Below, one piece after another: positions 22,817-62,747 of a DNA stretch of 64,000 nucleotides. How positions within the stretch are numbered: position 1 is the stretch's first letter; each line of letters opens with the position of its first letter. The stretch is from IMG/VR virus record IMGVR_UViG_3300030117_008341, positions 17,269-81,268 of that record. One strand, written 5' to 3'. Source of the DNA: a virus. The notes under the pieces are model-generated. The model made no database searches. It worked only from the letters and a program-made list of their open reading frames with translations, and was not told the origin of the DNA. A program made the translations under genes and the position numbers.

Positions 22817-24157
22817 ATGCCTCTTTATAAGTTCGGGGCCGGGGATGTATTTTACAATCAGTTAAGAACATACCCCAGTTGTTCTTTTTTGATTATGTCG
22901 GGTAGCGAAACAGGCGCCGGCACAGTTTTTTATCAGGGAAAGTCAACAGAGCCCGGCTCAATCGTTGCAAATGTTAACGGTGTTCCTGTTGGTAATATAA
23001 GCTTATTTGAGCTTAATGTTGATCGTGCCGCAACTTCTACTGGTAGAGTTATCGGTTTGTCATCATCTGTTGGTACACAAAACGTTGTGGATAACGGAAC
23101 AATATATCCGTTTATAGAAAAAGGTTTGTCTAAAGTAGGCTTTAAGGGTCTTACAAGAGAACAGTTTATCAACGACTATGCCCAAGGCGACGTTATAACT
23201 GGTTCTTATTTTATGTCTGCCAGCTTAACAAGAAGAAAATACATTGCCTCCGCAGGTTTTAACGACGCTAATAGAGATGGCGCTGCTCTTAAAAACAGTC
23301 TAGATTTTGCAAAACGCCTCGGAGATCATTATGATTTCCCATCTGGATCATCTGGTACCACTACTACTATTGACATTCCATCTATATATTACGGATCAGG
23401 TATCAAGCCGGGTACTGTATCTCTCGAAGTGTATGTCACTGGAACTCTTCATACGCGATGTCGGGATTCTAGATACGATGGCGCATTGATACAAGATTTT
23501 GTGGTTGGGTCAGACCACGGCGCCTCCAGCACCCCAACTAATGGCACAGTTGTCGGTTGTATATTATATAAAGAGGGCGTTATAATACTGAACAATACTA
23601 CTAGCTTCCTCGGCCCTAGCACTAGTGTCCCCAACACACCCGGCACCGGTACCGAGAGCCGATATTCAAGCCCAGATAACCAATCTATTTCATCTACTGG
23701 TAACAATTGGAATTGGACAATATTTGGAGTGGGGATTCAGAATGGTCCTAACGTGCCGAAACTCGATACTCTCTCTAATGGATGGCAGGTAGCAAAAAAA
23801 GTTTATTATAAGATTAATTTCGCAGGCACCCACAAAATCCCAACCGTCACAATGCTTGCCAACGCAAACCGAGGCGAGTTAAACTATACGAACAACCCAA
23901 CTTATATTGAGTTTGGCCAAACGGCTTACAACCCAGTAACAAGTTCTACATTCTTTGGTGAGCAACAGTTAAATATCAAGAATATTCACTCTTCTTCCTA
24001 TTCAGATCCTACTGGGAGCTTAAAGAAGACCACATATATTACCAAGATTGGCATTTACGATGATAAGAAAAAGCTTATCGGTGTTGCTTCTGTAGCCAAG
24101 CCAGTCAAGAAAACTGAAGATAGAGACTTGACATTTAAATTAAAGCTTGACATCTAG
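22817..24157 (+). CDS. Virion structural protein, paralogue of the previous gene
   Basis: 446-aa protein, longer than its upstream paralogue by inserted segments in the middle (rich in Ser, Gly and Asn). N-terminus PLYKFGAGDVFYNQLRTYPS. It has a strong SD (AGGAGG, 7 nt before ATG). The conserved C-terminal block shared with the upstream protein ends in a short beta motif (LTFKLKLDI). The end of the gene holds the TTGACA box of the promoter driving the next two genes. Likely a fibre or outer tail protein; not identified further. Confidence 0.6.
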   Translation: MPLYKFGAGDVFYNQLRTYPSCSFLIMSGSETGAGTVFYQGKSTEPGSIVANVNGVPVGNISLFELNVDRAATSTGRVIGLSSSVGTQNVVDNGTIYPFIEKGLSKVGFKGLTREQFINDYAQGDVITGSYFMSASLTRRKYIASAGFNDANRDGAALKNSLDFAKRLGDHYDFPSGSSGTTTTIDIPSIYYGSGIKPGTVSLEVYVTGTLHTRCRDSRYDGALIQDFVVGSDHGASSTPTNGTVVGCILYKEGVIILNNTTSFLGPSTSVPNTPGTGTESRYSSPDNQSISSTGNNWNWTIFGVGIQNGPNVPKLDTLSNGWQVAKKVYYKINFAGTHKIPTVTMLANANRGELNYTNNPTYIEFGQTAYNPVTSSTFFGEQQLNIKNIHSSSYSDPTGSLKKTTYITKIGIYDDKKKLIGVASVAKPVKKTEDRDLTFKLKLDI

Positions 24158-24174
24158 CATAATCGTGTTATAAT
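24147..24174 (+). promoter_or_regulatory. Sigma70-like promoter for resolvase/primase
   Basis: TTGACA (24147-24152), 16-nt spacer, TATAAT (24169-24174): both boxes match consensus. The expected start of transcription, about 7 nt downstream, falls on or beside the ATG at 24180, and no SD is visible between, so the message could be leaderless. The -35 box lies inside the end of the upstream gene. Confidence 0.75.
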
Positions 24175-25621: not shown

Positions 25622-25849
25622 ATGAAAACCACCAAATCACAGTTAAAACAAATCATTAAAGAAGAAATGTCAAATGCCCTCAAGGAGCAAGACGGTGAAG
25701 AAATAATGTCTGCCATAGAGGACGTGCCAAAGGCAGCAGAGGACATAGCAGATAAGGTGCGTGATGAGGTTGAAAAAATGGCAGAGCCATCTGGCCTCGA
25801 CCCATCAGTTTTAATGCAGGCTATTGCAGCGTTGTTACAAGCAGATTAA
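25622..25849 (+). CDS. Putative internal virion protein 1 (capsid-targeting leader)
   Basis: 75-aa acidic protein. Its first 15 residues (MKTTKSQLKQIIKEE) are nearly the same as those of the next five genes, while the rest is unrelated. The leader resembles T4 internal-protein capsid-targeting sequences (MKT....FI.E) and ends I-K-E, fitting the (I/L)-x-E cleavage rule of T4 prohead protease. The remaining ~60 residues are helical and acidic (VPKAAEDIADKVRDEVEKM). No domain is recognised. It is first in a six-gene run with short gaps. Packaging into the head is inferred, not shown; the leader could instead be a binding tag for another partner. Confidence 0.65.
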   Translation: MKTTKSQLKQIIKEEMSNALKEQDGEEIMSAIEDVPKAAEDIADKVRDEVEKMAEPSGLDPSVLMQAIAALLQAD

Positions 25850-25862
25850 GGGAAAATAAACA

Positions 25863-26360
25863 GTGAAAACCACCAAATCACAACTGAGACAAATCATTAA
25901 AGAAGAAATAAGCAGCATGCTGAACAAACCAAGAACAGCAGACCAGTTTTTAGAAATGATTAAGTCTCAGTTTAGGCGGGCGGCAACAGAAAAAACTCTT
26001 GAAATGATGGCTAAATACTATGATGCAATGGTTAAGACCGCAGCCGAAAGAGCACCGCTTCAACCCAGCGACCCAAAAGAGATCGCAGCAGAGATTGGTA
26101 TTGCACAGGACAGTCCTTACCTACGGTGGGCTACTTTCCACCTAAACAAGCTTCAACAAGTACCCAGAGAGGCTTATGAAATGCTGCCCGCAAGTGACGA
26201 ACTTACCGCTATGCATTACGACCGCCTCGCAGCAAAAGAGAAAAAGCGAGCAGAGCGAGAGGCAGAGTTGCGCCGCCCGCGTACACCCGAAGAGAAAAAA
26301 GCAGCAGCAATCAAATTTGGTCAAGATATGGCCGCAGGCAAATACGGCCCGCTAGATTAA
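25863..26360 (+). CDS. Putative internal virion protein 2 (capsid-targeting leader)
   Basis: 165-aa protein starting with GTG, chosen because it restores the family leader MKTTKSQLRQIIKEE exactly in register. The first 45 bases are almost the same as those of the previous gene, so the leader was probably copied at DNA level. After the leader the protein is helical and charged, with no recognised domain; the C-terminal part is very basic and acidic (KEKKRAEREAELRRPRTPEE), suited to nucleic-acid contact or a coiled helix. The next gene starts 11 nt downstream. Confidence 0.65.
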   Translation: MKTTKSQLRQIIKEEISSMLNKPRTADQFLEMIKSQFRRAATEKTLEMMAKYYDAMVKTAAERAPLQPSDPKEIAAEIGIAQDSPYLRWATFHLNKLQQVPREAYEMLPASDELTAMHYDRLAAKEKKRAEREAELRRPRTPEEKKAAAIKFGQDMAAGKYGPLD

Positions 26361-26371
26361 GGAACAGTATT

Positions 26372-26953
26372 ATGAAAATCACAAGATCACAACTTAAACA
26401 GATTATCAGAGAAGAGTTGGAAGAAGGCGGTCTCGCTGGGCACTACGACAAGGATCGCGACATCGCCGTATCTGACGCTCTCGTTAATGCGGTGCTTGAC
26501 ATGCAGGAGATGCGTGGCGATGCGTATGCTGTAAAGGTTCTTAGAGAGATGGCTAACGACATTGAAAAAGAAATGGCCGCAAAAGACGGCCCCACTATGC
26601 AAGAGGAAGTGAAAAAACAAAGTATAAAGGCAATAATCAAGCCCATTGGTCGTATGACTCGGTACATCTTGAAAACACTCAATTATGATGAAGATCGCGA
26701 TGTTGACTACGGCATACCGGGGGAAGATCCGGGATTTGTAGATGATAAACAGTGGGTTGAACTTAAAAGTCTTGTTCAAACAACTCTTTCCAAGATTCCA
26801 AAGGCAGGAAGGGCCGATGCTATGTATGATGAAATTATGACCAACATTCAAAAACCTCGCCTTCATCGCACAGAGATTGCCGACTTTGCGTCTGCTTTTG
26901 ATGAGTATTTTATCGGGTTAGAGGCTATGGTAAGGGATGGAGATTTAAGATGA
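26372..26953 (+). CDS. Putative internal virion protein 3 (capsid-targeting leader)
   Basis: 193-aa protein with the leader MKITRSQLKQIIREELEEG; I-R-E fits the prohead protease consensus. The body is helical and acidic with a central basic helix (KAIIKPIGRMTRYILKTLNY) and no recognised domain. The SD-like AAGGAACAG lies upstream of ATG. Its stop overlaps the next start (ATGA), so translation is probably coupled. Whether the body acts in the newly infected host, as T4 internal proteins do, is open. Confidence 0.65.
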   Translation: MKITRSQLKQIIREELEEGGLAGHYDKDRDIAVSDALVNAVLDMQEMRGDAYAVKVLREMANDIEKEMAAKDGPTMQEEVKKQSIKAIIKPIGRMTRYILKTLNYDEDRDVDYGIPGEDPGFVDDKQWVELKSLVQTTLSKIPKAGRADAMYDEIMTNIQKPRLHRTEIADFASAFDEYFIGLEAMVRDGDLR

Positions 26954-27570
26954 AAATCACCAAAGAACTTTTAGAGCAAATGATTGAGGAAGCAGCATCG
27001 GAGTATGTCTATGGTGTTAAAAACCCCGGTCGTGTTGCTAATCAATACAAGATCAAAACAATCAAAAAAGTTATCTTTGAAGAGTTATCCGCAAACCTTA
27101 CTGAGGACGGACACGAAGATACATCCTCAGCTATAAGAAAGTTAAAGACTTCTATTGAAGACGCAGGAGAGATCCTACAAGGTCTCCAAGCACACCACGG
27201 TGATTTACCATCTTGGTGGATGGGCAAAGTAACTATCGCTGCTGACTATCTTAACAAAGCCAGAGACTATTTCCTTGTTTCCGGTGATGTGATGCAAGAA
27301 GAAGAGTTGGACGAGCGATGCCAGAAAGGTTACAAGACCCATCCAACACGCAAAACAAAAGAGATGTACGGCAAGACTTACCGCAATTGTATTAAAGCAG
27401 AAGGCGAGGAAGTTGAAGAGCGCAAACTAAAACCGGGCGAGAAAAGAAAACTTAAACGACTTGAAAAAGAAGTTCCCAAAAAAGACTTTACTGACCAGTA
27501 TGGAAAGGAAGGCGAATCTATTTATTATGCTACCTTGACTAAAATGGCGAAAAAGGATAAGAAAAAATGA
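26950..27570 (+). CDS. Putative internal virion protein 4 (diverged leader)
   Basis: 206-aa protein with a more diverged leader (MKITKELLEQMIEEAASEY); here M-I-E-E-A gives a possible cleavage after Glu, followed by Ala. A second leader-like stretch, IKTIKKVIFEELSANL, lies near residue 35. The C-terminal half has the module CQKGYKTHPTRKTKEMYGK and then YRNCIKAEGEE, with two cysteines 25 residues apart in a basic region, and ends in a Lys-rich tail (KMAKKDKKK). It overlaps both neighbours by ATGA. The basic half suggests DNA binding; not identified. Confidence 0.65.
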   Translation: MKITKELLEQMIEEAASEYVYGVKNPGRVANQYKIKTIKKVIFEELSANLTEDGHEDTSSAIRKLKTSIEDAGEILQGLQAHHGDLPSWWMGKVTIAADYLNKARDYFLVSGDVMQEEELDERCQKGYKTHPTRKTKEMYGKTYRNCIKAEGEEVEERKLKPGEKRKLKRLEKEVPKKDFTDQYGKEGESIYYATLTKMAKKDKKK

Positions 27571-28184
27571 AAATCACTAGAGAAAAACTAAAGCAAATCA
27601 TCAAGGAAGAACTTGAGAGTGCCCTTAGTGAACAACCACGCGCCATGATCGGCGCAGGTATACCCGGCATTATGAAACGCCTTAGCCCCGTTCCGGACCA
27701 TCTGGTACAAAGCTATAAAGGAAAAAAGAAAGTCTATAACACGAATAATGGAAATATTGTGGCATTAGATGATAGGGGCATTCCTTTTGTTGCATATGCT
27801 GATGAGATAGAGAAGAACCCCAATGCGGACTACCAATTCGCGATAGACACGCTTAAAAAAAATGGCTATGTAGAAGCTTCTCTAAGTGTCCCTATGTCTC
27901 CGGCAAATCTTGAAGCACTCACTCTCGGAGCTATCAAAGGGGAAGAGATCGACCGTGGCTATGTACAAAGAGCGCGCCCAAACTTTAAGAATCAGGACAA
28001 AGATATCCCCCGGATTAAACAAGTCATCGGCAAGAGAGAACTATCAGACCCAAGTATGCCTAACTGGGATCCCAGCAAAAATCAAATAGTTTACTTGGGA
28101 TCACGGACACTTCGTTCCGGAGATCAGGAAATCTACTTTAAGACATCAAATACTCACAAGTATTATAAAGCATTGTCCAGATAA
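27567..28184 (+). CDS. Putative internal virion protein 5 (capsid-targeting leader)
   Basis: 205-aa protein with the leader MKITREKLKQIIKEELESAL, start overlapping the stop of the previous gene (ATGA). After the leader it appears folded and mixed alpha/beta rather than low-complexity: VYNTNNGNIVALDDRGIPFV, then VEASLSVPMSPANLEALTLG, then NQIVYLGSRTLRSGDQEIYF. No family is recognised. This body could be an enzyme or inhibitor carried in the virion, but there is no catalytic motif I can name. Confidence 0.65.
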   Translation: MKITREKLKQIIKEELESALSEQPRAMIGAGIPGIMKRLSPVPDHLVQSYKGKKKVYNTNNGNIVALDDRGIPFVAYADEIEKNPNADYQFAIDTLKKNGYVEASLSVPMSPANLEALTLGAIKGEEIDRGYVQRARPNFKNQDKDIPRIKQVIGKRELSDPSMPNWDPSKNQIVYLGSRTLRSGDQEIYFKTSNTHKYYKALSR

Positions 28185-28197
28185 AGGGAATAACATT

Positions 28198-28647
28198 ATG
28201 AAAACCACCAAACAACAACTTAGACAAATCATCAAAGAAGAGTTAGAGGTCATCCTCACAAACGAGGAGGCAGGCGAACTCTTTGGCGAGGGTGTTGAAG
28301 CAGAGTTAGAAGAAGAGTTGAACGAAGATCTGACTACTATTATGCAGAATCTTACACCTGAGAATCTTGATTTGATTGTTAGGTCTATCATTCAGGTTGG
28401 CACAACATTTGGTGTTCCGATGCTCGCCGCCGCCCTTGGTAAGTTGGGCCTTGAAGCAGCACAGGCAGCAAGAACAGCCGGCAAGGCGAAAACGATGATT
28501 GGTGATAAGGATTCCGGCAGGTTAGTTGATTTTCTGTATCATGAAATAACAGGTTATAGAGATTTTAAAGGGCAGGATAAGCAGTCACTTGAAGATGCCG
28601 AAAAAGAGTTCCCAATGGCGCCCGCCCGTCCCCCTATGCCTAAATAA
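28198..28647 (+). CDS. Putative internal virion protein 6 (capsid-targeting leader)
   Basis: 149-aa protein with the leader MKTTKQQLRQIIKEELEV. An acidic stretch follows (GVEAELEEELNEDLTTI), then a hydrophobic segment about residues 60-85 (SIIQVGTTFGVPMLAAALGK) that could enter a membrane, and a Pro-rich end (APARPPMPK). It is last in the cassette; a consensus promoter for the next gene begins 11 nt after its stop. No domain recognised. Confidence 0.65.
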   Translation: MKTTKQQLRQIIKEELEVILTNEEAGELFGEGVEAELEEELNEDLTTIMQNLTPENLDLIVRSIIQVGTTFGVPMLAAALGKLGLEAAQAARTAGKAKTMIGDKDSGRLVDFLYHEITGYRDFKGQDKQSLEDAEKEFPMAPARPPMPK

Positions 28648-28657
28648 AAAATAATCC

Positions 28658-28686
28658 TTGACAACAAGTTTGTAACAGGTTATAAT
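28658..28686 (+). promoter_or_regulatory. Sigma70-like promoter for the gp47-gp46 fusion gene
   Basis: TTGACA (28658-28663), a 17-nt spacer, and TATAAT (28681-28686): a perfect match to the bacterial housekeeping promoter. It lies in the 65-nt gap before the TTG-started recombination gene, leaving a leader of about 20 nt with an AAGGGG SD. Confidence 0.85.
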
Positions 28687-28712: not shown

Positions 28713-31700
28713 TTGAAGATAGCACATATCGCGGATACACACATCCGCAACTATAAGTATCATAGAGAGTATCGTGAGATATTCGATCTTATCTATGATA
28801 GACTGAAAACAGAGAAAGTTGACTACATTGTTCACTGCGGAGATCTCGCACACACAAAGACACAACTTTCTCCTGAATACTTTGACTTGGCGACATCGTT
28901 CTTAAAGAACCTTGCCGACATTGCGCCGACCTACATCATTCTTGGCAACCACGACGGTAACCTAAAGAATGAACACAGGCAAGACGCAATCACGCCAATC
29001 GCAAACGCACTCCGACACCCGAATCTCAACCTGTTAAAGAACGCAGGCGAGACGATTGTCGAAGGCAACATAGCGTTTAACGTTCTTTCCGTCTTTGATG
29101 AAGAGAACTGGGTGAAGCCGACAAGCGACAAACGCATTAACATTGCGCTGTATCACGGCTCTGTGTCCGGTGTTACAACCGACACAGGCTGGGTAATGAC
29201 GCACGGCGACCACCCTATCACAGTCTTTGAAGGGCACGACTATGTGTTCCTCGGGGACATCCACAAAACAAACCAAATCCTCGATGACGAGGGACGTGTA
29301 AGGTATCCGGGCTCCACTGTTCAGCAGAACTTTGGTGAGACGGATGACAAAGGCTTCCTGCTCTGGAACATCCAAAGCAAAGAAGACTTTACTTGTGAAC
29401 ACGTTGTAATCCCAAACCCCAAGCCTTTTATAACAATAAACCTAACCCCCACTGGGCGTATGCCCAAAGGCTTGACCGTGAAGAAGGGTGCAAGATTACG
29501 ACTTGTGTCTAACAATAATCTATCTCTTGAAGCGATGCGAAAGGCAGTTGATGTCGCAAAGCAACGCTTCAAGCCCGATACTATTACATTCTTAAACCGC
29601 GCAGCAGGGGAGCGTGGTAATGTTGAAGAAATCACGGACAGTATTCAACAAGACGATATGCGTAATCCACAGATCCAAGAGGAACTTATCCGCGAGTATC
29701 TAGTAGATTACCAAGCCAGCGAAGAACTGATGAAAAAGGTTCTGGACCTTAATACTCTCTACATTAAGAAGGCAGAAGAGTCCGAGGAGATCTCTAGAAA
29801 CATCAAGTGGCGTATCAACGATCTACAGTGGGATAATCTGTTTAACTACGGTGAAGGCAATAGAATTGATTTTAATAAACTAAACGGAACAGTTGGTATC
29901 TTCGGTAAGAACTACTCCGGTAAATCCAGTGTGGTGGACAGCTTATTATATACTTTGTACAACACAACGTCTAAGAATGAGCGTAAGAATGTCAACATTA
30001 TTAATCAAAACAAGGACGAAGGCTCTGGCGAGGTTGTAATTACTATTGGCGATGAGCAGTATTACGTCCGTCGCGGCTCGTCAAAATACACAAAACGACT
30101 CAAGGGTGTGGAAACTCTTGAAGCCAAAACTGATCTTGACTTCTTCAAGGTCGGCCCAGACGGAGAAAAGGTAAGTTTAAATGGCCTCACAAGAAACGAC
30201 ACAGACAAAAACATCAGAAAGGTATTCGGAACTCTTGATGACTTCCTTCTCACTAGTTTGTCTAGCCAGTTGGATAGTCTTTCCTTTATTAGGGAAGGTA
30301 GCACAAAACGGAAGGAAATCTTGGCAAAGTTTCTCGACTTGGAAATCTTCGAGAAAAAGTTCAGACTAGCGAAGGAAGATGCATCTGATATGCGAGGTGC
30401 TTTGAAGCGCCTTGAAGGACGCGACTATGATACAGAGATCGAAGAAGCAGAACAAGAGCACACTCAATGTGAAGAGGAGTTGGATGACCAAAAGGTTAAG
30501 TGCGCCGACTTAAGGCAAGAAGTTATTGATCTTAGAGACAACATTACAGAGATAGAAGGTAAGATTGCATCTATCCCTGCTGAGATGATTGATATTGCAA
30601 AAGTCAAAATAGATATTAGACAAAGGCGTCTGGACCTCACCTCGGCACAAAAAGATCTTGAACAAGACAAGAAAACACTCAAAGATAAAAAGAAACTTAC
30701 CAAAGATATTGATAAGTTCTTGGCAGGTTATGACGTTACAGATCTTGGCGATAAAGAAAAGAGGTGCGATCAGCTAGGCTTTGAGATAATGGATTTGGAC
30801 AGAGAAATGATCCAGATCGTGAAAAAAGCTGCATCTCTCGACGATCCCGGCTTCTTGCGTGGTTGCAAGTGTTTGCACGAAGCAGAAGAAGCTTTAGCAC
30901 AGAAGCCAGACCTTGAACAAAAAATCGAAGAACTTTCTCAGGAACTTGAAGGGCTTGATGTTGAATCTGTCAAGAAAAGCCTTGAGCAGTATCGTTCGCT
31001 AGCAGATAAAAAGAACCAAACGACGAGAGATATCACAACCACAGAACTTGCTATTGCTCGTAACCAGAATACGATCAATCGTCTGGCCACAGAGTTGTCT
31101 AATCTAAAAGACAAAGAAACATCTTATGAAGACAACCGTGAAGCTATTGAAAACTTGGAAGCACTCCTGACTGAGAAAGACGGCTTAGACGCAGATATAT
31201 CTATTAAGGAAGGTAAGCTAGAGGCTTGCAAAGATAAAATTGTTGATTACCACAGAAGAGTTGGCTCGTTAGAGCAAAAAGTTATCAACATTAAGGATCA
31301 GAAGAACGACTATCTTGAGCTACGCGAACAGTTCGCAGCCTACGATCTTTACATGCGTTGTATGCACCCTAACGGTATCGCATACGATGTTATCAAGAAG
31401 AAGCTTCCAGTTATCAACCAAGAGATAGCAAAGGTTCTTACAAACCTAACAAACTTTGAAGTCCTTTTTGAAGAGGATGGAAATAAGCTTGATATCTTTA
31501 TCAAGCACCCGAAGCATGACCCTCGTCCACTCTCTATGGCTTCGGGAGCAGAGAAGACAATGGCCGCAATGGCTATCCGTCTTGCTTTCCTTGCAGTGTC
31601 AAACCTGCCTACAAGCGACATTATGGTGCTTGATGAACCGGGGACAGCATTGGATGAGGAGCACTTACAAGCATTTACCCAACTTTTGGACATGATTAAG

Positions 31701-31811
31701 GTGCATTTCAAGACAACACTTTTGATTTCCCATTTGGATTCTTTGAAAGATGTTGTTGATTTAACACTTGACATTTCCAAAAAAGAAGGTTATGCTTATA
31801 TAAACCAATAA
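28713..31811 (+). CDS. Fused Mre11-Rad50 recombination nuclease (gp47-gp46 fusion)
   Basis: 1032-aa single chain joining two proteins that are separate in T4 (gp47, gp46) and bacteria (SbcD, SbcC); the complex processes DNA ends for recombination-dependent replication. Residues 1-330 carry the Mre11 phosphoesterase set: D8 and H10 (ADTHI), D44 (CGDLAH), N79-H80-D81 (GNHD), H148, and GDIH at 181-184. The Rad50 ATPase begins near residue 380 with Walker A GKNYSGKSS (about 396-404), a long coiled coil, the ABC signature MASGAEKTM near 941 and Walker B MVLDEPGTALD near 970. The coiled-coil apex has CKC near 718 rather than the zinc-hook CxxC. TTG start with AAGGGG 6-12 nt upstream; the first residues MKIAHIADTH require it. 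Confidence 0.92.
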   Translation: MKIAHIADTHIRNYKYHREYREIFDLIYDRLKTEKVDYIVHCGDLAHTKTQLSPEYFDLATSFLKNLADIAPTYIILGNHDGNLKNEHRQDAITPIANALRHPNLNLLKNAGETIVEGNIAFNVLSVFDEENWVKPTSDKRINIALYHGSVSGVTTDTGWVMTHGDHPITVFEGHDYVFLGDIHKTNQILDDEGRVRYPGSTVQQNFGETDDKGFLLWNIQSKEDFTCEHVVIPNPKPFITINLTPTGRMPKGLTVKKGARLRLVSNNNLSLEAMRKAVDVAKQRFKPDTITFLNRAAGERGNVEEITDSIQQDDMRNPQIQEELIREYLVDYQASEELMKKVLDLNTLYIKKAEESEEISRNIKWRINDLQWDNLFNYGEGNRIDFNKLNGTVGIFGKNYSGKSSVVDSLLYTLYNTTSKNERKNVNIINQNKDEGSGEVVITIGDEQYYVRRGSSKYTKRLKGVETLEAKTDLDFFKVGPDGEKVSLNGLTRNDTDKNIRKVFGTLDDFLLTSLSSQLDSLSFIREGSTKRKEILAKFLDLEIFEKKFRLAKEDASDMRGALKRLEGRDYDTEIEEAEQEHTQCEEELDDQKVKCADLRQEVIDLRDNITEIEGKIASIPAEMIDIAKVKIDIRQRRLDLTSAQKDLEQDKKTLKDKKKLTKDIDKFLAGYDVTDLGDKEKRCDQLGFEIMDLDREMIQIVKKAASLDDPGFLRGCKCLHEAEEALAQKPDLEQKIEELSQELEGLDVESVKKSLEQYRSLADKKNQTTRDITTTELAIARNQNTINRLATELSNLKDKETSYEDNREAIENLEALLTEKDGLDADISIKEGKLEACKDKIVDYHRRVGSLEQKVINIKDQKNDYLELREQFAAYDLYMRCMHPNGIAYDVIKKKLPVINQEIAKVLTNLTNFEVLFEEDGNKLDIFIKHPKHDPRPLSMASGAEKTMAAMAIRLAFLAVSNLPTSDIMVLDEPGTALDEEHLQAFTQLLDMIKVHFKTTLLISHLDSLKDVVDLTLDISKKEGYAYINQ

Positions 31812-39133: not shown

Positions 39134-39153
39134 AACGTCAATTGGAGATAACT

Positions 39154-39768
39154 ATGGGAAAATCACTTTTACGAGAATATTACGCACTTTGTGATGGTGG
39201 CGTCTGTCAAGACTTACTGACTGAAGAAGAAAAGAAGTTGATGTCCGCCGGCAAGAAGTTTTACATGACCGGCTGCATGCAGAAGTTTGATACACCAAAC
39301 GGAAACGGTCGCGTTTATTCCAAAGAGATCCTCCAACGCGAAGTAGAAAACTATTGGAAACTTGTCAAGGAGCGTAGAGCACTTGGTGAGTTAGACCATC
39401 CCGATGACTCTGTTATTAACTTAAAGAATGCATCTCACCTTGTAACAGACATGTGGTGGGACGGCCCCGCTCTTATGGGCAAGGTCGAGGTTCTAGATAC
39501 ACCATCAGGCAACATTTTAAAACAACTGGCTAACTCTGGTGTCACACTTGGCATTTCATCCCGTGGCCTTGGGTCAGTCAAAGAGGTTCGCGGAACTACA
39601 ATGGTCGAAGACGATTTTCAACTTATCTGCTTTGATTTCGTCTCGGAACCATCTACTCCCGGTGCTTTCATGCATTCCGATAAAAGAATGCGAGAACACA
39701 AAGAACCAAATATTTTTACAAAAGCAGATAAGATAAACAGAATCTTAAATAATATTTTGAGAGATTGA
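39154..39768 (+). CDS. 21: Prohead protease, gp21-like
   Basis: 204-aa serine protease of the T4 gp21 type, which cleaves the scaffold, capsid protein and internal proteins as the prohead matures. Catalytic His is H82 in GELDHPDD and catalytic Ser is in GISSRG (S135/S136), spaced as in T4 gp21 (212 aa). The N-terminus is a fair match too (MTGCMQKFDTPNGNGRVYSK). I use the ATG at 39154, with GGAG 6 nt upstream, rather than an in-frame TTG at 39142. It stands before the scaffold and capsid genes as in T4, and is the enzyme expected to process the leaders of the cassette at 25622-28647. Confidence 0.93.
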   Translation: MGKSLLREYYALCDGGVCQDLLTEEEKKLMSAGKKFYMTGCMQKFDTPNGNGRVYSKEILQREVENYWKLVKERRALGELDHPDDSVINLKNASHLVTDMWWDGPALMGKVEVLDTPSGNILKQLANSGVTLGISSRGLGSVKEVRGTTMVEDDFQLICFDFVSEPSTPGAFMHSDKRMREHKEPNIFTKADKINRILNNILRD

Positions 39769-39769
39769 G

Positions 39770-40198
39770 ATGAAAAGAACAGAACTTAAAAAATTAATAA
39801 AGCCATTAGTAAAAGAATGTGTCCAAGAGACGATTTTAAATGATGGTCTTTTATCAAATATAGTCTCTGAGGTAATGCAAGGAATGGGAAACCAGTTCCT
39901 CGTAGAAAATAAAGAACAGGTTGTTCCCACAATGTCTAACGAAAACAGTGTACAACTAGAACAACTAAAAGAAAGACAACAAGAGACTAGAAAACGATTG
40001 CTTGATGAAATAGGTCACGATGCTTACAATGGTGTTGACCTTTTTGAAGGCACGACGCCTATTAGAGATAGCGGGCAACCCTCCGCGACGGCTCAAGCGA
40101 ACCCAATGTTTGGTCAGGATCCTGACGATGCAGGCGTGGACATTTCATCGATCGTCGCATTAGGTGGAAAAAACTGGAAAGCTTTAGCGAGTAACTAA
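39770..40198 (+). CDS. Head-cluster protein, possible prohead core component
   Basis: 142-aa protein starting two bases after the protease stop. The N-terminal helix (MKRTELKKLIKPLVKECVQE) is loosely like the capsid-targeting leaders at 25622-28647 and ends with V-Q-E. The central helix is charged (LEQLKERQQETRKRLLDEIG). The C-terminal part is Gly/Asp-rich (GQDPDDAGVDISSIVALGG). Position between protease and capsid genes supports a core or internal-protein role. No homologous family is named. Confidence 0.55.
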   Translation: MKRTELKKLIKPLVKECVQETILNDGLLSNIVSEVMQGMGNQFLVENKEQVVPTMSNENSVQLEQLKERQQETRKRLLDEIGHDAYNGVDLFEGTTPIRDSGQPSATAQANPMFGQDPDDAGVDISSIVALGGKNWKALASN

Positions 40199-41042: not shown

Positions 41043-42014
41043 ATGCCAACACTCTTAGAACAAGCTATTATTGATGCACAAGAACTTAGAGACGCCGCGC
41101 TAAAGAACGCCGAGTCTACTATTCTAGAAAAGTATAACAACGAAGTGAAGAATGTTGTTGAAACCCTCTTGGAGCAGGAAGAGGAAATGATGGGGGCTAT
41201 GGAAGAACCTGCCTTCGCCGCTGCCGAAGAAGAGGAAATGTGTCCTTGCCCGGACAAGGAAGAGGAAGAGACCGTAATGTTCAGTCTTGATGACCTAAAA
41301 GCCATGGCTGATGAACTTGACGGTGATGCTCTTGGGACTCCCGAGGATCAAGAAGATCTTATGACTGATCTTGGAATGGAGCCCGAAGAAGAGGAAGACA
41401 CACTTCCCCTTCAAGAAGATCTTCAGTTGGTTGAAGAAGAAGTTGAACTCGATGAAGCTACAATCAAAGAACTTGTTGAAGAATTGGTTGTTGATGTTGT
41501 GCCTACCAAGAGTGGCTGGCTAGCAACTCCTCAAGGCGAGATGCAATATGCAGAAGAATTAGAATTGGCTAGACTGGCTAGCACAGAGGCCCAAGAGCAG
41601 ATTAAAGCTCTTAAGGATGCCCGTGACCGTCTAACCATCACAAACGAATCTTTGACAAGCGACAATAAGAAGCTTGTTGAGGGCATCTTAGCATTGAAAG
41701 AGAAGGTTGAACAAACCCTCTTGGAAAATGCGAAACTACTCTATATGAATCAGGCATTGAATAGTGCCTCCCTGAATGAGCGACAAAAGTCAAACGTTGT
41801 CGAGTCTATTCGCAAGGCTGATTCTGTTGAAGAGGCGAAGGTAATATTTGAAACCCTTCAAAGCGCAGCGGGCGATTCTACTCGTAGAAAGCCAAAATCG
41901 TTGAGCGAAGCAATCAGTAGACCTTCATCGACATTGCCAAGACGAAGAAAAGAAAGAGCACAAGGGGAAACCATTGTGAAGGATCGATTCCAAAGATTGG
42001 CAGGACTTAAATGA
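41043..42014 (+). CDS. 22: Prohead scaffold protein, gp22-like
   Basis: 323-aa helical, very acidic protein that forms the inner core on which the capsid assembles and is then digested by the protease. Glu/Asp-rich stretches run over residues ~40-140 (EEEMCPCPDKEEEETV, PEEEEDTLPLQEDLQLVEEE), followed by a long coiled coil (EQIKALKDARDRLTITNESL) and a basic C-terminus (RRRKERAQGETIVKDRFQRL). T4 gp22 is 269 aa with the same place immediately before the capsid gene. Assigned by position and composition; sequence identity with gp22 is not obvious. Two cysteines (CPC) are unusual for a scaffold. Confidence 0.85.
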   Translation: MPTLLEQAIIDAQELRDAALKNAESTILEKYNNEVKNVVETLLEQEEEMMGAMEEPAFAAAEEEEMCPCPDKEEEETVMFSLDDLKAMADELDGDALGTPEDQEDLMTDLGMEPEEEEDTLPLQEDLQLVEEEVELDEATIKELVEELVVDVVPTKSGWLATPQGEMQYAEELELARLASTEAQEQIKALKDARDRLTITNESLTSDNKKLVEGILALKEKVEQTLLENAKLLYMNQALNSASLNERQKSNVVESIRKADSVEEAKVIFETLQSAAGDSTRRKPKSLSEAISRPSSTLPRRRKERAQGETIVKDRFQRLAGLK

Positions 42015-42055: not shown

Positions 42056-43855
42056 ATGTCAGTATTAAATAAATTAACTGAAGGAATCGTTAACCGCGAT
42101 CTCCGTCAGGAAGGCGATGCTCTTATCTCCAAGTGGGAAAAGACCGGACTCCTCGAAGGCCTCAATAACGATGTCACGAAGAACGGTATGGCTCGTCTCC
42201 TTGAAAACCAAGCCAAGCAGCTTCTGAAAGAGGCTTCTTCTATGGCAGCAGGCGATGTGGAAGGTTTTGCTTCCGTCGCTTTCCCGCTCGTTCGCCGCGT
42301 GTTCGGTGGTCTTTTGGCCAACGATCTCGTTAGCGTTCAGCCGATGAGTCTCCCAAGTGGTCTCATCTTCTTCCTCGATTTCACTTACGAGGCTGGTAAG
42401 CTCGGCCTCGCCGCCGGCGAATCCGTCTACGGTGGTGGAGTTGTTGGTAAGGGCATCCAAACGGGTGTCACAGACATCACCGAAGAGGGTGGTGGCCTGT
42501 ATAACTTGCAGAATGGTTACTCGCAAGTAAGTGCTTCGACAACTGTTGCAACTACCATTGTTGCTTCTGGTAACGTCGGTGTGGGTGGTATTCCCGAGTT
42601 TGGTGATACAACTGTTTCTGGCTTTACTGCTGGTTATGACCTTGCTCGTCTTCTGAAGTTCGACGTGGACCTTGTGTCTGGTTCGGCTTTCGCAGCAGCA
42701 ACAGTGCCATTGGCTACACTCACAGCAGCAGGCGTGCGATTCAACGAGGATGACTTTGTTGATATCAAGCTTGCCGACCAAAGCATTGACGGTGGTCTCG
42801 GTACTCTTACTGATGGTCTTCAAGTTCGTCGCTTGACCCAGCTTGACCCAACTGAGAATGCAGCTTCGGCAACTAGGCTTCTGTTTGTTGTCGCCGCAAC
42901 TGGTTCGGAAACAACCGCGCAGATGACGACCTCGCTCAACGCTGTTGATCTTGCACTTCACACCATCGTGGATGACTTCATCGCTGGCGGCGCCATCGGT
43001 GCTGTTGTTGGTGATGATACTTGGGGTCTTGAAGAGCCTCAGTTCGGTACCGGCAATGCTGGTTCTACGACGGCTAAGAACGAGATCCCCGAGATCGACA
43101 TCAAGGTGGACTCGATTGCTGTTACGGCACAAACCCGTAAGCTGAAAGCTAAGTGGTCGCCGGAACTTGGTCAGGACTTGAACGCCTACCACAACCTTGA
43201 TGCCGAGGTTGAGTTGACTAGTGTTCTCTCTGAGCAGATTGCTCTTGAGATCGACCGTGAGATCGTTTCTGATCTTATTAACGGTGCAACTGCTGGTACG
43301 TTCTATTGGTCGCGCTCTCCGGGCATGTTCCTGAACCGCACAACCGGTGCAGAGATTGGCGCTTCAACCGCCGCTCCTGACTTCACTGGTACGGTTTCCG
43401 AATGGTACGAGACCCTTATCGAGACTGTTAATGATGTCTCGGCACAGATCCACCGCAAGACTCTGCGGGGTGGAGCTAACTTCATCGTGACCTCACCTGA
43501 AGTTGCTAACATCCTTGAGTTCACCGCTGGTTTCCGTGCAAGCGTCACCGCTGATGCTGATCGTGGCACCGCAGGTGCTGTGAACGTTGGTGCTATCTCG
43601 AAGAAGTTCGACGTGTACGTCGATCCTTACTTCCCTCGCAACGTGCTGCTTGTCGGCCGTAAGGGTGGTAGCTTCCTTGAGTCGGGCTATGTTTACGCTC
43701 CGTATGTGCCGTTACAGGTCACGCCGACTATCTTCGGTACCGAGGACTTCATCCCCCGCAAGGGCGTGATGACTCGCTACGCTAAGAAGATGGTCCGTCC
43801 TGATATGTACGGTCTGGTCATCTGTCGTGGCCTTCTCGGTGAGTCTGGCGCTTAG
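42056..43855 (+). CDS. 23: Major capsid protein, gp23-like
   Basis: 599-aa HK97-fold shell protein. The N-terminal segment is helical and removable; QLLKEASSM at residues 55-63 gives L-K-E followed by Ala, fitting prohead protease cleavage after E59 (T4 gp23 is cut after E65). The mature chain shows the gp23-type start (FPLVRRVFGGLLANDLVSVQ, then MSLPSGLIFFLDF) and end (VMTRYAKKMVRPDMYGLVI). Longer than T4 gp23 (521 aa). Codons are visibly more C/G-ending than in neighbours, as in very highly expressed genes. A strong terminator follows. Confidence 0.96.
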   Translation: MSVLNKLTEGIVNRDLRQEGDALISKWEKTGLLEGLNNDVTKNGMARLLENQAKQLLKEASSMAAGDVEGFASVAFPLVRRVFGGLLANDLVSVQPMSLPSGLIFFLDFTYEAGKLGLAAGESVYGGGVVGKGIQTGVTDITEEGGGLYNLQNGYSQVSASTTVATTIVASGNVGVGGIPEFGDTTVSGFTAGYDLARLLKFDVDLVSGSAFAAATVPLATLTAAGVRFNEDDFVDIKLADQSIDGGLGTLTDGLQVRRLTQLDPTENAASATRLLFVVAATGSETTAQMTTSLNAVDLALHTIVDDFIAGGAIGAVVGDDTWGLEEPQFGTGNAGSTTAKNEIPEIDIKVDSIAVTAQTRKLKAKWSPELGQDLNAYHNLDAEVELTSVLSEQIALEIDREIVSDLINGATAGTFYWSRSPGMFLNRTTGAEIGASTAAPDFTGTVSEWYETLIETVNDVSAQIHRKTLRGGANFIVTSPEVANILEFTAGFRASVTADADRGTAGAVNVGAISKKFDVYVDPYFPRNVLLVGRKGGSFLESGYVYAPYVPLQVTPTIFGTEDFIPRKGVMTRYAKKMVRPDMYGLVICRGLLGESGA

Positions 43856-46965: not shown

Positions 46966-49947
46966 ATGCCATCAGACGCTAGAAAATTTAGATTCGTATC
47001 CCCCGGTATTTTCATTAATGAAATCGACCAGTCGCAGATCCCTGCACTCCCTGAAGCTGTAGGGCCTGTGATTATTGGCCGCGCAGAAAAAGGCCCCGGA
47101 ATGACCCCAACAAAGGTCGGCTCATTTTCTGAATTTGTTGAAAGATTTGGAAACCCACTCTCTGGTATAGGCACGGACGGTGATGTCTGGCGCTTAGGTA
47201 ATGGTTACGCTGCTCCGTCATACGGTGCATACGCCGCACAAGCTTATCTCCGCGCTGGTGTTGGTCCTGTTACTTTTGTTCGTCTTATGGGCACGCAGTC
47301 TCCTGATGCTACCACTGCCGGCAAAGCAGGCTGGACCACAACTGCTACTAGTCCCACTAGTCTTGCATCCACCAACGGCGGCGCATATGGTCTCTTCTTG
47401 TTCGAGTCTGCTTCAGCAGGCGGTACAACGACTGCACCGGGCACACTTGCCGCTGTTTGGTATTTGAATAGTGGCGCGATTGTCCTTTCTGGAAACGTTG
47501 CTGGCTCTACAGCGACAACTGGCGCAGCAGCAGTGGCAGTCAAAGCGGATTCCACTGGCAACTTCAAAGCGCAGATTTATAGCACTGCCGGCGTCCCACT
47601 TACGGGCGCAGGAAAACTAGAGGACATTACCTTTAACCTTACTGAGGGTAGTCGCCACTTTATCCGTAATGTGTTCAATACGAATCCCGAGAACGCCGGC
47701 GCAATGGCAGATACAACCACTTCCAAAAACTATTGGCTTGGACAAACGTTTGAAAGCTATGTTGCACGCGCTGGAACGGCTGGTGCATCCTTAGCAGGAG
47801 ACGCTGCTTCGTTTGGCGCAATTCTTGCGATCGCGAACAGTTCAGACGACAACGGCCCACATGAGCAAAGAATCCCTTACCGTGATGCACACTCTGGTTG
47901 GTTCTTTGCACAGTCTCTCAACGCCGACACCGCTTCATATACTCATGAAAATCAACAAAAACTTTTTAAGTTTGTTGGCATCAATGGTCACGGCGCATGG
48001 CTGCATAGAAACATTAAAATCTCTATCAATAACATCAAAGCACCAAGCAATGACAACGTGAAATATGGAACGTTCGATGTTGAAATTCGTAAAGCACAAG
48101 ACACCGACCTTGGTCCAGTAATTCTTGAAAGATTCTCTAACTGTAACTTGGACCCAAGAAGCGCCAACTTTATTGCTCGCAAGATTGGTGACATCTCCGT
48201 TGAGTTTGACAATGATGAAAAGAGATATAGAGAGTTTGGGGATTATGCCAACAATTCTGAATACGTTCGCGTCGTTCTACATGAGAATGTTGGTGTTATC
48301 GATCCAAAGTTCTTGCCATTTGGTGTCTTTGGGCCGCCAAAGTATCCGGGCTGGACTTCTACTGCTGCTACCGCACCGACCAACGGTAATGCAAGCACCA
48401 ACGCATTTGCTCTTGGCTCTAATGAGATCCCATTCTCTGCTTGCACAACTGCGAACTTCTTAACTGGTGGCGCAGATTCTGTTCTTGGTGCTTATGGTAC
48501 TGCTGATATTACATATCCTAATGTCCTGACCCGCTTAAGTTGCTCTAATGGTGGCGACGGCGCTAGCCCAACCACTAATGCCTATTTTGGGCTGCAAACT
48601 ACTAAGGCTAGAACTAGCACAGTGTTTGATAACGGGTATGTTGATTATCTTCGTCCTCTCGGAGCGGACGTTGTGAGTGACGCAGCTTGGGTAGATACTT
48701 TTGGAATCAGTGGCTACACTAGTCCGCTTATCCCACAGTTTAAGTTTACCCTTGATGAAGTGTTTGTTACTTACGATACAAGCACCTACTCCTCAACGAC
48801 CCCAACTCTCGGTATTCAAGACGCTGCATATATCTCTGGATCTTTTGCAAACGGCACCTCGTTTACCGCAACCAGTTCTGTTGGTGGTACAGCAAACTTT
48901 GAGAATATTCTTAATGCCAAGGTTAATCGTTTCACATCGCCTCTCTTCGGCGGCTTTGATGGTGTTGATATCACAGAGCGTGATCCGTTCCGCAATACTC
49001 TTATTGATGGCACCTCACCTACGGAAGAGACTAACTATGTGTTCTTCTCGCTCCGCAGAGCCATTAACACTATTGCAGATGCAGAGGTCGTTGAGATGAA
49101 TCTTGCTTCTCTCCCCGGTATTTGGCACGAAGAAACCACCAAGTATCTTATCGATACTTGTGAAGCTCGCGGAGATGCATTGGCCGTCATCGACCTTAAG
49201 GGTGGCTTTACCCCAAGGCACGAAAGCACTGATTCCAAGTCTACTAGAAAGGGATCGTTAGGTAATGTCCTAACCAACATTAAGGCTCGTAATCTTAACT
49301 CCTCCTATGGCGCGGCTTACTACCCATGGGTGAAGGTCAGAGACGATCAAAGTGGCACCATTGTTAATATGCCTCCTTCGGTTGTTGCCCTTGGTGTTCT
49401 TGCCAACACAGAGAGAGCAGCAGATGTCTGGTTCGCGCCAGCAGGTTTCCGTAGAGGTGGCCTGTCACTTGGAGCGGCTGGTCTAACTGTTAGCGGCGTT
49501 GAAACCAAATTAACTTCGCGCAATAGAGATGATCTCTACGAGGTCAATGTTAACCCGATTGCTTCTTTCCCCGCAGAGGGCATCGTGGTCTTCGGACAGA
49601 AGACATTGCAAGCCACTCAGTCGGCACTTGACCGTATCAACGTGCGTCGTCTGTTGATCTTCCTCAAGAGAGGAATCTCCAGAATCTCCAGCACCACGCT
49701 GTTCCAGCCAAACGTGCAAGCTACTTGGAATAACTTCAAGTCTAGAGCAGATCAGTTCTTGGGCGATGTCCAAACTAGATTCGGTCTCGATGACTTCCGG
49801 GTTGTTCTTGACGAAACCACCACTACTCCTGACTTAGTTGATCGTAACATCTTGTATGCTAAGATTTTTGTCAAGCCCACAAGAGCCATTGAGTTCATTG
49901 CTATTGACTTCATTATTACAAGGTCAGGTGCGTCTTTCGACGACTAA
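46966..49947 (+). CDS. 18: Tail sheath protein, gp18-like
   Basis: 993-aa contractile sheath subunit. The N-terminus (VSPGIFINEIDQSQIPALPE, then GPVIIGRAEKGPGMTPTKVG) and the C-terminal domain (SRISSTTLFQPNVQATWNNF, GDVQTRFGLDDFRVV, ILYAKIFVKPTRAIEFIAI) are the standard sheath ends. T4 gp18 has 659 aa; the extra ~330 aa are in the middle, with Ser/Thr/Gly/Ala-rich stretches, and are probably exposed surface domains. Codon use is more C/G-ending than in most neighbours, as in the capsid gene. Confidence 0.95.
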   Translation: MPSDARKFRFVSPGIFINEIDQSQIPALPEAVGPVIIGRAEKGPGMTPTKVGSFSEFVERFGNPLSGIGTDGDVWRLGNGYAAPSYGAYAAQAYLRAGVGPVTFVRLMGTQSPDATTAGKAGWTTTATSPTSLASTNGGAYGLFLFESASAGGTTTAPGTLAAVWYLNSGAIVLSGNVAGSTATTGAAAVAVKADSTGNFKAQIYSTAGVPLTGAGKLEDITFNLTEGSRHFIRNVFNTNPENAGAMADTTTSKNYWLGQTFESYVARAGTAGASLAGDAASFGAILAIANSSDDNGPHEQRIPYRDAHSGWFFAQSLNADTASYTHENQQKLFKFVGINGHGAWLHRNIKISINNIKAPSNDNVKYGTFDVEIRKAQDTDLGPVILERFSNCNLDPRSANFIARKIGDISVEFDNDEKRYREFGDYANNSEYVRVVLHENVGVIDPKFLPFGVFGPPKYPGWTSTAATAPTNGNASTNAFALGSNEIPFSACTTANFLTGGADSVLGAYGTADITYPNVLTRLSCSNGGDGASPTTNAYFGLQTTKARTSTVFDNGYVDYLRPLGADVVSDAAWVDTFGISGYTSPLIPQFKFTLDEVFVTYDTSTYSSTTPTLGIQDAAYISGSFANGTSFTATSSVGGTANFENILNAKVNRFTSPLFGGFDGVDITERDPFRNTLIDGTSPTEETNYVFFSLRRAINTIADAEVVEMNLASLPGIWHEETTKYLIDTCEARGDALAVIDLKGGFTPRHESTDSKSTRKGSLGNVLTNIKARNLNSSYGAAYYPWVKVRDDQSGTIVNMPPSVVALGVLANTERAADVWFAPAGFRRGGLSLGAAGLTVSGVETKLTSRNRDDLYEVNVNPIASFPAEGIVVFGQKTLQATQSALDRINVRRLLIFLKRGISRISSTTLFQPNVQATWNNFKSRADQFLGDVQTRFGLDDFRVVLDETTTTPDLVDRNILYAKIFVKPTRAIEFIAIDFIITRSGASFDD

Positions 49948-61559: not shown

Positions 61560-62747
61560 ATGTATTTTCAAACGCTCGACGATAAGGGCGAATGTGTAGG
61601 AGTGTATAAAGATGGAAACCTGTATTTCGAGGACATCCCAAGTGGGTGTGCCCGGACGTGGAAATACGCCGAATATCTTGAAAAAGATGATGTGGACTAC
61701 GGCAGTATTTTCTGCGGAAATCGGAGTCTTAATGACGCTTGTCCAGCTTTCCTGATCGACGATTGGGTTGCTGTTGAAGACAAGTTAAAGGCATTTTATC
61801 GCTCGTTTGTGTTGGCCAAGGTCAATATGGACGAGAATTGTTTTTTTGACCTTGTTCCAAAGCCATTTTTGCTTGAATATTGCGAAATACGCAACAAAAT
61901 CACGCAATATGTCTTTGAAAACTACGAAAAACCGCAAAACTATGACTTTATGGTCGATTTGACCAAGGTATTGGCACGCATACGACACCAAAGGCTAAAC
62001 ATTGATGTATCATCCCTCTCTAATCAGGCTCATTTGGCCAAGTTTCGGAAGGCAATGAAGAAGTTTAGCCAGATTGACCCGTATTGCCGCTACAACATCA
62101 ACGGAACCAAGACAGGTCGGCTAACAACCCAGAAGAACTCGTTCCCCGTTATGACAATGGACAAAGATTTTCGCTCTATCGTCAAACCGACTAACGACTG
62201 GTTCGTGGAGCTAGATTTCAATGCCGCAGAGGTGCGAACACTTATGGCACTAGGAGGCTCTGAGGTGCCCCTAGAAGACATTCACGACTGGAATGTGCGT
62301 AACCTATTTAACGCGCACACGACACGCGAGGAGGGCAAACAGAAGTTCTTTTCGTGGCTATACGATGAGAATAAAATCAACCCAAGACTCTCCAAGTATT
62401 ACGACCGAGATAAGGTGCGTGAAATGCACTGGGATGGGCAAGTTGTCAAGACTATGTTTGGACGAGAGATTGAAGCAGACCGCAAGCACGCCCTAAACTA
62501 CATTATTCAGAGCACCACAGCAGATCTTGTGCTCCGTCAGGTTATCAAGGTCCACGAAATGCTCCGAGATATGAAGTCTTTCATTGCATTTACGATTCAC
62601 GACAATATAGTGCTTGACATCGTAGACGAAGAGCGTTATATTATTCCTAAGTTAATTGAAAAGTTCTCTGATACTGACCTTGGCGAATATCTCGTAAATG
62701 TCAAAGCAGGAAAGAACTTCGGTAATCTAAGGACGTTAAATCTATGA
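61560..62747 (+). CDS. Compact family A DNA polymerase
   Basis: 395-aa DNA polymerase with only the polymerase domain of the Pol I type; no 3'-5' exonuclease motifs are seen in the N-terminal ~130 residues. TKTGRLTT lies at 183-190. Motif A is ELDFNAAEVRTLMALGG (D219). Motif B residues R256, K260, F264 and Y268 keep the spacing of E. coli R754, K758, F762 and Y766. NYIIQSTTADL matches the AxNxxxQGxxAD helix. Motif C is HDN at 347-349 (HDE in Pol I), so the catalytic Asp is kept. SD-like GGGGGA lies just before ATG. It overlaps the next gene by 4 nt. Whether it is the main replicase cannot be told; T4 uses a family B enzyme. Confidence 0.88.
   Translation: MYFQTLDDKGECVGVYKDGNLYFEDIPSGCARTWKYAEYLEKDDVDYGSIFCGNRSLNDACPAFLIDDWVAVEDKLKAFYRSFVLAKVNMDENCFFDLVPKPFLLEYCEIRNKITQYVFENYEKPQNYDFMVDLTKVLARIRHQRLNIDVSSLSNQAHLAKFRKAMKKFSQIDPYCRYNINGTKTGRLTTQKNSFPVMTMDKDFRSIVKPTNDWFVELDFNAAEVRTLMALGGSEVPLEDIHDWNVRNLFNAHTTREEGKQKFFSWLYDENKINPRLSKYYDRDKVREMHWDGQVVKTMFGREIEADRKHALNYIIQSTTADLVLRQVIKVHEMLRDMKSFIAFTIHDNIVLDIVDEERYIIPKLIEKFSDTDLGEYLVNVKAGKNFGNLRTLNL

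Follow-up and report, generated by a model that had tools for sequence, protein, structure and literature searches.

A shared N-terminal leader on unrelated proteins of T4-related phages as a candidate capsid-targeting propeptide

The internal proteins of T-even phages are a highly diverse set of which only the capsid-targeting sequence (CTS) is conserved (PMC3012670, available sections). In T4, propeptides of this kind comprise 10-19 residues and the prohead protease gp21 cuts after the glutamate of an L/I-X-E motif; truncation and amber work on IPIII has mapped processing to residues 8 and 10 and targeting largely to the N-terminal portion (PMC9026906, in its accessible parts). Likewise, the ejection proteins of the giant phages phiKZ, 201phi2-1 and SPN3US are internal head proteins with propeptides cut by the prohead protease, and several cuts per propeptide are known (PMC5694885, accessible parts). 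Here, we compare these systems with a cassette of six consecutive genes in the virus record IMGVR_UViG_3300030117_008341 (G000; 81,268 bases), whose proteins begin with a common leader and continue into bodies that are unrelated to one another. The window analyzed is a stretch of 64,000 nucleotides (nt) corresponding to record positions 17269-81268; in the following, labels starting with G denote virus records and those starting with L denote fetched loci.

We consider it likely that the leader serves as a capsid-targeting propeptide, in the manner of the CTS of T4 internal proteins. The sequences support the leader as a unit, its fit to the cleavage rule, its link to the protease and the head gene cluster, and a virion-like composition of the proteins that carry it. 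As for the mechanism, which we infer from T4 with regard to targeting, cleavage and injection, the leader (14-22 residues), probably an amphipathic helix, would dock a protein onto the scaffold core or the protease of the forming head. A gp21-type protease would then cut after the I-x-E motif, at residue 14, and in many proteins also after a second L-x-E near residue 22. The unrelated bodies would thereby end up free within the packaged DNA and be injected together with it.

The six leader genes and their relation to T4 internal proteins

The cassette spans positions 25622-28647 and consists of six head-to-tail open reading frames (ORFs) on the plus strand, separated by 13, 11, -4, -4 and 13 nt. 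All six share the leader MK(I/T)T(K/R)xxL(K/R/E)Q(I/M)I(K/R/E)E(E/A).

Gene 1, 25622-25849, plus strand: 75 amino acids (aa); leader MKTTKSQLKQIIKEE at 25622-25666; acidic body with an isoelectric point (pI) of 4.05
Gene 2, 25863-26360, plus strand: 165 aa; GTG start; leader MKTTKSQLRQIIKEE; basic body
Gene 3, 26372-26953, plus strand: 193 aa; leader MKITRSQLKQIIREE; acidic body
Gene 4, 26950-27570, plus strand: 206 aa; divergent leader MKITKELLEQMIEEA; mosaic of modules
Gene 5, 27567-28184, plus strand: 205 aa; leader MKITREKLKQIIKEE
Gene 6, 28198-28647, plus strand: 149 aa; leader MKTTKQQLRQIIKEE; acidic body with a moderately hydrophobic stretch

An earlier note on this DNA had described six consecutive genes with near-identical leaders and unrelated bodies, and this is borne out by the ORF coordinates, by the reading of the leaders and by BLASTP: matches between the full proteins begin in the leader, and once the first 23 residues are removed, the best of all pairs (genes 2 and 4) reaches E = 0.013 and the next 0.09. 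Two of its remarks on the bodies call for minor correction. The body described as Cys/Lys-rich, that of gene 4, contains only two cysteines (Cys), and the hydrophobic segment, in gene 6, scores 1.45 on the 19-residue Kyte-Doolittle scale, under the membrane threshold of 1.6. None of the six bodies has a Pfam or PHROG match above chance or cut-off, and genes 4 and 6 have no match among named phages. Structure models are weak, with a predicted local distance difference test (pLDDT) score of 40 for gene 5, and a pLDDT of 61 and a predicted template modeling score of 0.26 for gene 4.

The same six genes, with identical lengths and identical in the 60 residues compared, occur in G027 (106,523 bases), which judging by these sequences is the virus of G000 or a near-identical one. 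Bodies similar to that of gene 1 are found behind the leader in L063 and L059. The sole relative of gene 2 among the fetched loci is the identical virus (L088), the whole-collection scans for bodies having covered genes 3 and 5 only. In these scans, gene 3 has relatives in L024 and L358, each behind a leader; the full body of gene 5 is matched in the identical virus only, and seven further loci match its leader region. Gene 4 has the most divergent leader of the six and contains a degenerate second leader (YKIKTIKKVIFEELSANLTEDGHED, around 27046-27120), and the module that follows this second leader sits directly after a normal leader in L024, L044 and similar relatives.

Like IPI, IPII and IPIII of T4, the cassette proteins are small and unrelated, have little or no Cys and share an N-terminal peptide starting with MK; the CTS of IPII and IPIII ends, as do the cassette leaders, in I-x-E (MKTYQEFIAE↓A, the arrow marking the cut); and T4 and G000 alike combine a gp21-type protease with a gp23-type capsid protein in the same phage. 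The differences are also considerable. The leader MKITKSQLKQIIKEE is longer than MKTYQEFIAE and, compared by eye with ipI, ipII and ipIII, does not match it in sequence; the overlap comprises MK(T) and, with ipII and ipIII only, I-x-E. Unlike T4 internal proteins, the leader proteins frequently have a second site, mostly E at P1', and mostly acidic bodies, whereas IPII and IPIII are strongly basic, so that the basic mature protein known from T4 is not typical here. T4 has three internal proteins and Alt, whereas the richest leader records contain some 24 leader genes, and we found no homology between the bodies and T4 internal proteins. Judged by sequence, the leader is outside the T4 CTS family, and its cargo differs in charge and scale. 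In the giant phages, cleavage follows A-X-E (the rule of SPN3US) or S/A/G-X-E and propeptides are mostly long, several of those in SPN3US exceeding 100 residues (PMC5694885, in part), whereas the leader has I-x-E and 14-22 residues.

The leader occurs almost exclusively in viruses. A degenerate DNA pattern for its 15 residues, equivalent to 58.8 bits, is matched exactly by at least 119 stretches in viral contigs, some of them on one contig, and by a single stretch in a prokaryote collection of 84,980 species genomes. This match lies on a contig of 305,838 bases (NHDW01000006.1; contig 5 of G060, L348), which is binned as Methylococcaceae bacterium TMED69; because it carries a prohead protease, a gp23-like capsid site and 24 or 25 leader genes (by two regular expressions, or regexes), it looks like a misbinned phage. 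The fetched loci contain 348 leader ORFs by regex, 301 of them distinct. Counted in the same way, there are six leader genes each in G000 and G027, four in G025, one in G014, nine in G002, five in G033, 24 in G005 and 24 on contig 5 of G060, where the regex misses some genes (such as MKVTREHLQQIIREE in G025) and takes in a spurious one in G033. The longest unbroken runs comprise nine genes in G005 and seven in G060. The earlier note's picture of a six-gene cargo set stands as far as a leader on unrelated bodies is concerned, but the leader is not confined to the cassette and occurs in runs of 5-9 genes and up to about 24 times per record. In record G000 itself, the regex finds no other ORF with the full leader, and it finds none in the cultured Flavobacterium phage immuto or in Microcystis phage Mel-JY01; by eye and by matrix, immuto (MW353176.1; host Flavobacterium sp. 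LMO8) has three leader-like genes, at 102250, 102836 and 113144. A 22-residue leader query against named phages returned one record with E = 2, although the low-complexity filter of BLAST may hide such queries, and literature searches, including searches for exact leader strings, found no published description of such a leader.

The leader is conserved at the protein level: at positions where two of the six leaders agree in amino acid, 54 codon pairs (38%) are synonymous and 89 are the same. In an alignment of 150 proteins, conservation reaches 90% or more at each of residues K2, T4, L8, I12 and E14; this alignment and the leader logo keep a search bias at residues 12 and 14, since the pattern used to fetch the loci fixes these two residues, not residue 13, and the leader regex restricts residues 11-14. 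For a recount, we picked ORFs on residues 1-8 and set aside those matching the fetch pattern. Depending on the count, leader proteins shorter than 40, 60 or 70 aa, those containing X, those with near-identical bodies and those with bodies running off the locus end were dropped.

Predicted cleavage motif, head genes and composition

The earlier note had pointed out that the I-K-E or I-R-E of the leaders fits the gp21 rule, and this fit holds for all six genes: residues 12-14 of genes 1-6 are IKE, IKE, IRE, IEE, IKE and IKE, each conforming to L/I-x-E. The recount yielded 245 non-redundant ORFs, of which 84 match the fetch pattern by construction and 161 do not. Among the latter, I12 is present in 88%, K13 in 43%, E14 in 88% and E15 in 66%, and L/I at residue 12 is combined with E at residue 14 in 131. 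With I12 and E14 fixed and residue 13 loose, the leader thus has the P3/P1 form of the gp21 rule. A second L/I-x-E, outside the search pattern, occurs within residues 17-28 of 141 of 255 proteins; later windows of equal length contain one in 15, 25, 26 and 30 of them (Fisher test against the highest, p = 2e-26). At this second site, P1' is most often G, D or A. Three cassette genes have it: gene 1 (ALKE↓Q, residues 20-22), gene 3 (LEE↓G, residues 16-18) and gene 5 (ALSE↓Q, residues 20-22).

The window also encodes the protease that would be needed for such cuts, within a cluster of head genes:

39142-39768, plus strand: prohead protease of the gp21 type (PF03420, Peptidase_S77, E = 8.3e-30; phrog_207, E = 1e-52)
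39770-40198, plus strand: head-cluster gene directly after the protease, with the leader-like N-terminus MKRTELKKLIKPLVKE
41043-42014, plus strand: scaffold-like gene, assigned by its position between the protease and capsid genes
42056-43855, plus strand: major capsid protein of the gp23 type (PF07068, E = 1.4e-73)
42224-42232, plus strand: predicted capsid cut site LKE↓A (residues 57-59; context NQAKQLLKE↓A), aligned by MAFFT with LTE65↓A of T4 gp23

The protease blocks GELDHP (GExxHP) and GISSRGLGS (SSRG), which we take to carry the catalytic residues of the S77 protease, align with those of T4 gp21. The scaffold-like gene has no Pfam match over the cut-off and encodes 14 L/I-x-E motifs, compared with 8.7 in shuffles.

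The earlier note had proposed to ask whether the leader always co-occurs with a gp21-type protease. We surveyed all distinct records of at least 40 kb from two pattern scans and found PF03420 in 23 of 34 leader-bearing records other than G000, compared with five of 25 records obtained with a random 14-mer (p = 5e-4); as the random set is unmatched for habitat and kinship, this ties the leader to T4-related phages, not to a need for the protease as such. A gp23-type capsid protein is found in 16 of the 35 leader records (counting G000 and the near-identical G027), some of which are near-identical to each other, and all 16 have the protease. So do all 12 leader records of at least 100 kb. We found no clear counterexample, that is, a leader without a gp21-type protease, among the leader records examined.

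Regarding gene order, strict leader genes make up four of the 40 protease neighbors in 20 relatives (G004, G021, G030 and G022, with G021 and G030 belonging to one family); the protease neighbor MKVTREHLQQIIREE of G025 also fits the leader when judged by eye, and laxer forms are present in G007 and G032. Ten leader-fetched loci hold a protease, with a leader gene abutting it in L014 and L080 and lying within 250 nt in L067 and L100, a nearness that in L014 and L080 is partly selected, as the loci were fetched for leaders. In L358, two leader genes and one gene of a second leader class (see below) lie among homologs of the head genes in the window. Several post-protease genes encode a W-rich N-terminus ending in L-x-E.

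Composition offers a test that is independent of the form of the leader and points to the virion. With gene classes assigned by hand, Cys makes up 0.29% of structural (20 genes) and 1.54% of non-structural proteins (15 genes) in G000, 0.24% (13) and 0.98% (19) in immuto, and 0.30% (11) and 1.65% (8) in two fetched stretches of T4. The 993 residues of the six cassette proteins include 2 Cys (Poisson p = 3e-5 at the non-structural rate and 0.44 at the structural rate). Overall, 80% of 265 leader proteins are, like the internal proteins of T4, devoid of Cys, compared with 25.5% of 826 other main-strand ORFs of 70-300 aa, which may include spurious ones, and this gap persists in the acidic as well as in the basic subset. 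Membrane-like sequences are present in nine of 274 leader bodies and in 78 of 910 others. Apart from the leader, virion proteins have about one-fifth to one-quarter of the Cys of other phage proteins among the genes compared in T4, immuto and G000, and low Cys could serve as a crude classifier of virion proteins.

The capsid cut site provides a further comparison. In a MAFFT alignment of 21 capsid rows, some of them duplicates, P3 is L or I in 19; immuto has V, and RM378 lacks the motif. In its context, NQAKQLLKE↓A, the site of G000 is similar to the leader SQLKQIIKE↓E, and in T4 EFIAE↓A of the CTS and SFLTE↓A of gp23 likewise resemble each other. When the 63 non-leader proteins of G000 are scored with a leader matrix, the capsid site ranks first and the protein of 39770-40198 second. 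This resemblance is weak evidence, since it is not prominent in leader-rich relatives, and for the same reason we dropped the general claim that the leader mimics the capsid propeptide. A covariation of P2 between leader and capsid site across phages was not supported by eye either, as immuto combines QIVSE↓A with IKE in its leaders.

Points against a capsid-targeting role and alternative readings

Several observations weigh against the leader being a targeting propeptide. Besides its dissimilarity to the CTS, P1' at the invariant site is mostly E, while the aligned capsid proteins have A, S, G, T, N or Q, and one leader-like protein of immuto (MKKSQLREIIRKE) violates the L/I-x-E rule. The leader-protein bodies are mostly acidic (median pI 4.87 versus 6.21 in others), with 55% of 274 below pI 5; in the cassette, genes 2, 4 and 5 have a pI of 8.8-9.2 and genes 1, 3 and 6 one of 4.1-4.7. 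The capsid site is outscored by 38 of 246 non-leader proteins in G033, 44 of 152 in G014, 46 of 182 in G025, 77 of 256 in G005, 139 of 387 on the G060 contig and 132 of 228 in G002, and it ranks high in two phages without regex leader genes, immuto (7 of 223 above) and Mel-JY01 (4 of 249 above). The hand-made gene classes of the Cys test and the fetching of loci by their leaders count on the same side. Furthermore, 11 of the 34 other leader records have no protease. As gp23 is also missing from all 11, these records may be fragments: the portal is absent from ten, and in the eleventh, G018, some 2 kb separate it from the end of the contig, so that with the spacing found in the window the protease would lie beyond that end. 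The tail-sheath profile matched none of the 11 and is below the cut-off in G000 itself.

Another objection concerns the time of expression. In the 64 kb window, there are two perfect sigma-70 consensus promoters (TTGACA-16/18-TATAAT), with 0.04 expected, and they flank a RuvC-like gene, a primase gene and the six leader genes:

24147-24174, plus strand: perfect sigma-70 promoter ahead of the RuvC-like gene, the primase gene and the cassette
28658-28686, plus strand: perfect sigma-70 promoter just past the cassette, ahead of an Mre11-Rad50-like gene

The RuvC-like gene was named by eye and has no Pfam match. Because the first promoter may join the cassette with the RuvC-like and primase genes, the six genes may be expressed early or in the middle period. 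The internal proteins of T4 are likewise made early. The earlier note had regarded the six proteins as the equivalent of T4 internal proteins; the common leader, the L/I-x-E motif and the gp21-type protease agree with this, whereas the leader sequence, which is not that of a CTS, the mostly acidic bodies and the possibly early expression do not.

The possible shared transcription unit would also fit a leader that acts as a docking helix, bringing early or middle proteins to a phage complex or compartment in the cell, with neither packaging nor cleavage, and the structure models of genes 4 and 5, weak as they are, do predict a helix (residues 5-21 and 5-20, respectively). We regard this as unlikely, since it leaves unexplained the L/I-x-E motifs at residues 12-14 and around 22, the link to the protease, the leader genes adjacent to it and the virion-like Cys content.

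Somewhat less probable still is a role of the leader proteins in the scaffold or core, like that of gp67 and gp68 in T4; they would be packed into the prohead by way of the leader, cut up by the protease and largely lost instead of being injected. In T4, gp22 and two further core proteins end up as multiple cleavage fragments (PMC9026906, in part), and the acidic composition would suit such parts. So would the gene at 39770-40198, which follows the protease; similar N-termini are found near the protease in most of the 20 relatives, and the gene has no match among named phages. Core parts, however, should be few and conserved, whereas 393 bodies fall into 196 clusters, of which 134 are single and the largest has 110 members. 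They should also be rich in inner cleavage motifs, but L/I-x-E is not enriched within the cassette proteins (z = 1.2 for gene 4, the other five being outside the top 16), compared with 3.7 for the capsid protein and 2.2 for the scaffold-like protein. Finally, that the shared 5' end is a DNA-level element, such as a recombination hot spot or a translation-control segment, coding only by chance, is very improbable: leaders do recur at the start of successive genes, and gene 4 resembles a fusion of two leader genes, but the codon differences noted above and a conservation that tracks amino-acid positions and the L/I-x-E form speak against it.

Bodies, a second leader class and neighboring genes

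Returning to the capsid-targeting reading, the bodies have few recognizable relatives. Among 150 leader proteins, the longest of 274 non-redundant ones, we found 11 Pfam families, each of them once, 20 undescribed PHROGs and two marginal PADLOC matches. Modules do recur: modules B (EDGHED...WW) and A (CQKGYKTH...YRNC) of gene 4 are found apart in L024, L044, L051, L065, L009 and others, mostly behind their own leaders, and the PSAYASGALVKCRK module stands behind a cassette-type leader in L009, behind the second leader in L048 and behind neither in L314. A module from the body of an immuto leader-like protein is also present, without leader, in Sinorhizobium phage phiM12 and Methylophilales phage Melnitz-3.

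The second leader class, MKLLFENWRKFLNE, is absent from the window. A regex that fixes E6, W8 and E14 finds it in 28 ORFs of the fetched contigs (e.g. L110:2513-11131, L033:4267-4986, L044:3-1849 and L314:3198-8348). It is likewise a short tag on unrelated bodies, and its FLxE end is closer to EFIAE of T4. Ten bodies were scanned; three match AAA_33, DUF192 and DUF2608, and a fourth matches a nucleotidyltransferase below the cut-off. These proteins are less Cys-poor, 10 of 28 lacking Cys. From its sequence, this class is a candidate for another head-targeting label, one more similar to the T4 CTS. A by-eye suggestion that some of its bodies are ADP-ribosyltransferases found no Pfam match, and we make no claim of Alt-like enzymes.

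Taken together, we lean towards the view that a large, previously undescribed group of T4-related phages loads dozens of unrelated, fast-changing, mostly Cys-free proteins into its heads via one short N-terminal label, and perhaps via a second, T4-like one, with runs of 5-9 genes, up to about 24 genes per genome, and modules swapped and fused behind the label. If so, the leader would be a label, readable from sequence, for phage proteins that are carried into the host, and the injected proteins of a phage could be listed from its sequence. Proteins with almost no family match would become candidates for counter-defense or takeover, functions that for the present bodies are guesses. Moreover, T4-type cargo loading would be extended to an uncultured group, in the form of a packaging tag with a matching protease. 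Immuto, as a cultured relative with three leader-like genes, makes the idea testable; literature searches found no virion proteomics for any leader-bearing phage, and the accessible part of PMC7077304 does not mention immuto.

Several further genes are of note in their own right. Downstream of the cassette, a single gene of 1032 aa (28713-31811) encodes both an Mre11-type phosphoesterase and a Rad50/SMC-type ATPase (PF00149, PF13476) in one protein, whereas in T4 these functions are separate, in gp47 and gp46. A 276-aa protein (62744-63574) has no Pfam match and contains GLGQAGCNIADA and VGGSGS motifs that recall the GTP-binding loops of tubulin/FtsZ. In the tail sheath protein (46966-49947; 993 aa), the Pfam sheath domains are confined to the C-terminal 300 residues. 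Lastly, the 242 kb record G005 contains two tandem gp23-type capsid genes (139110-142965; L247, L261).

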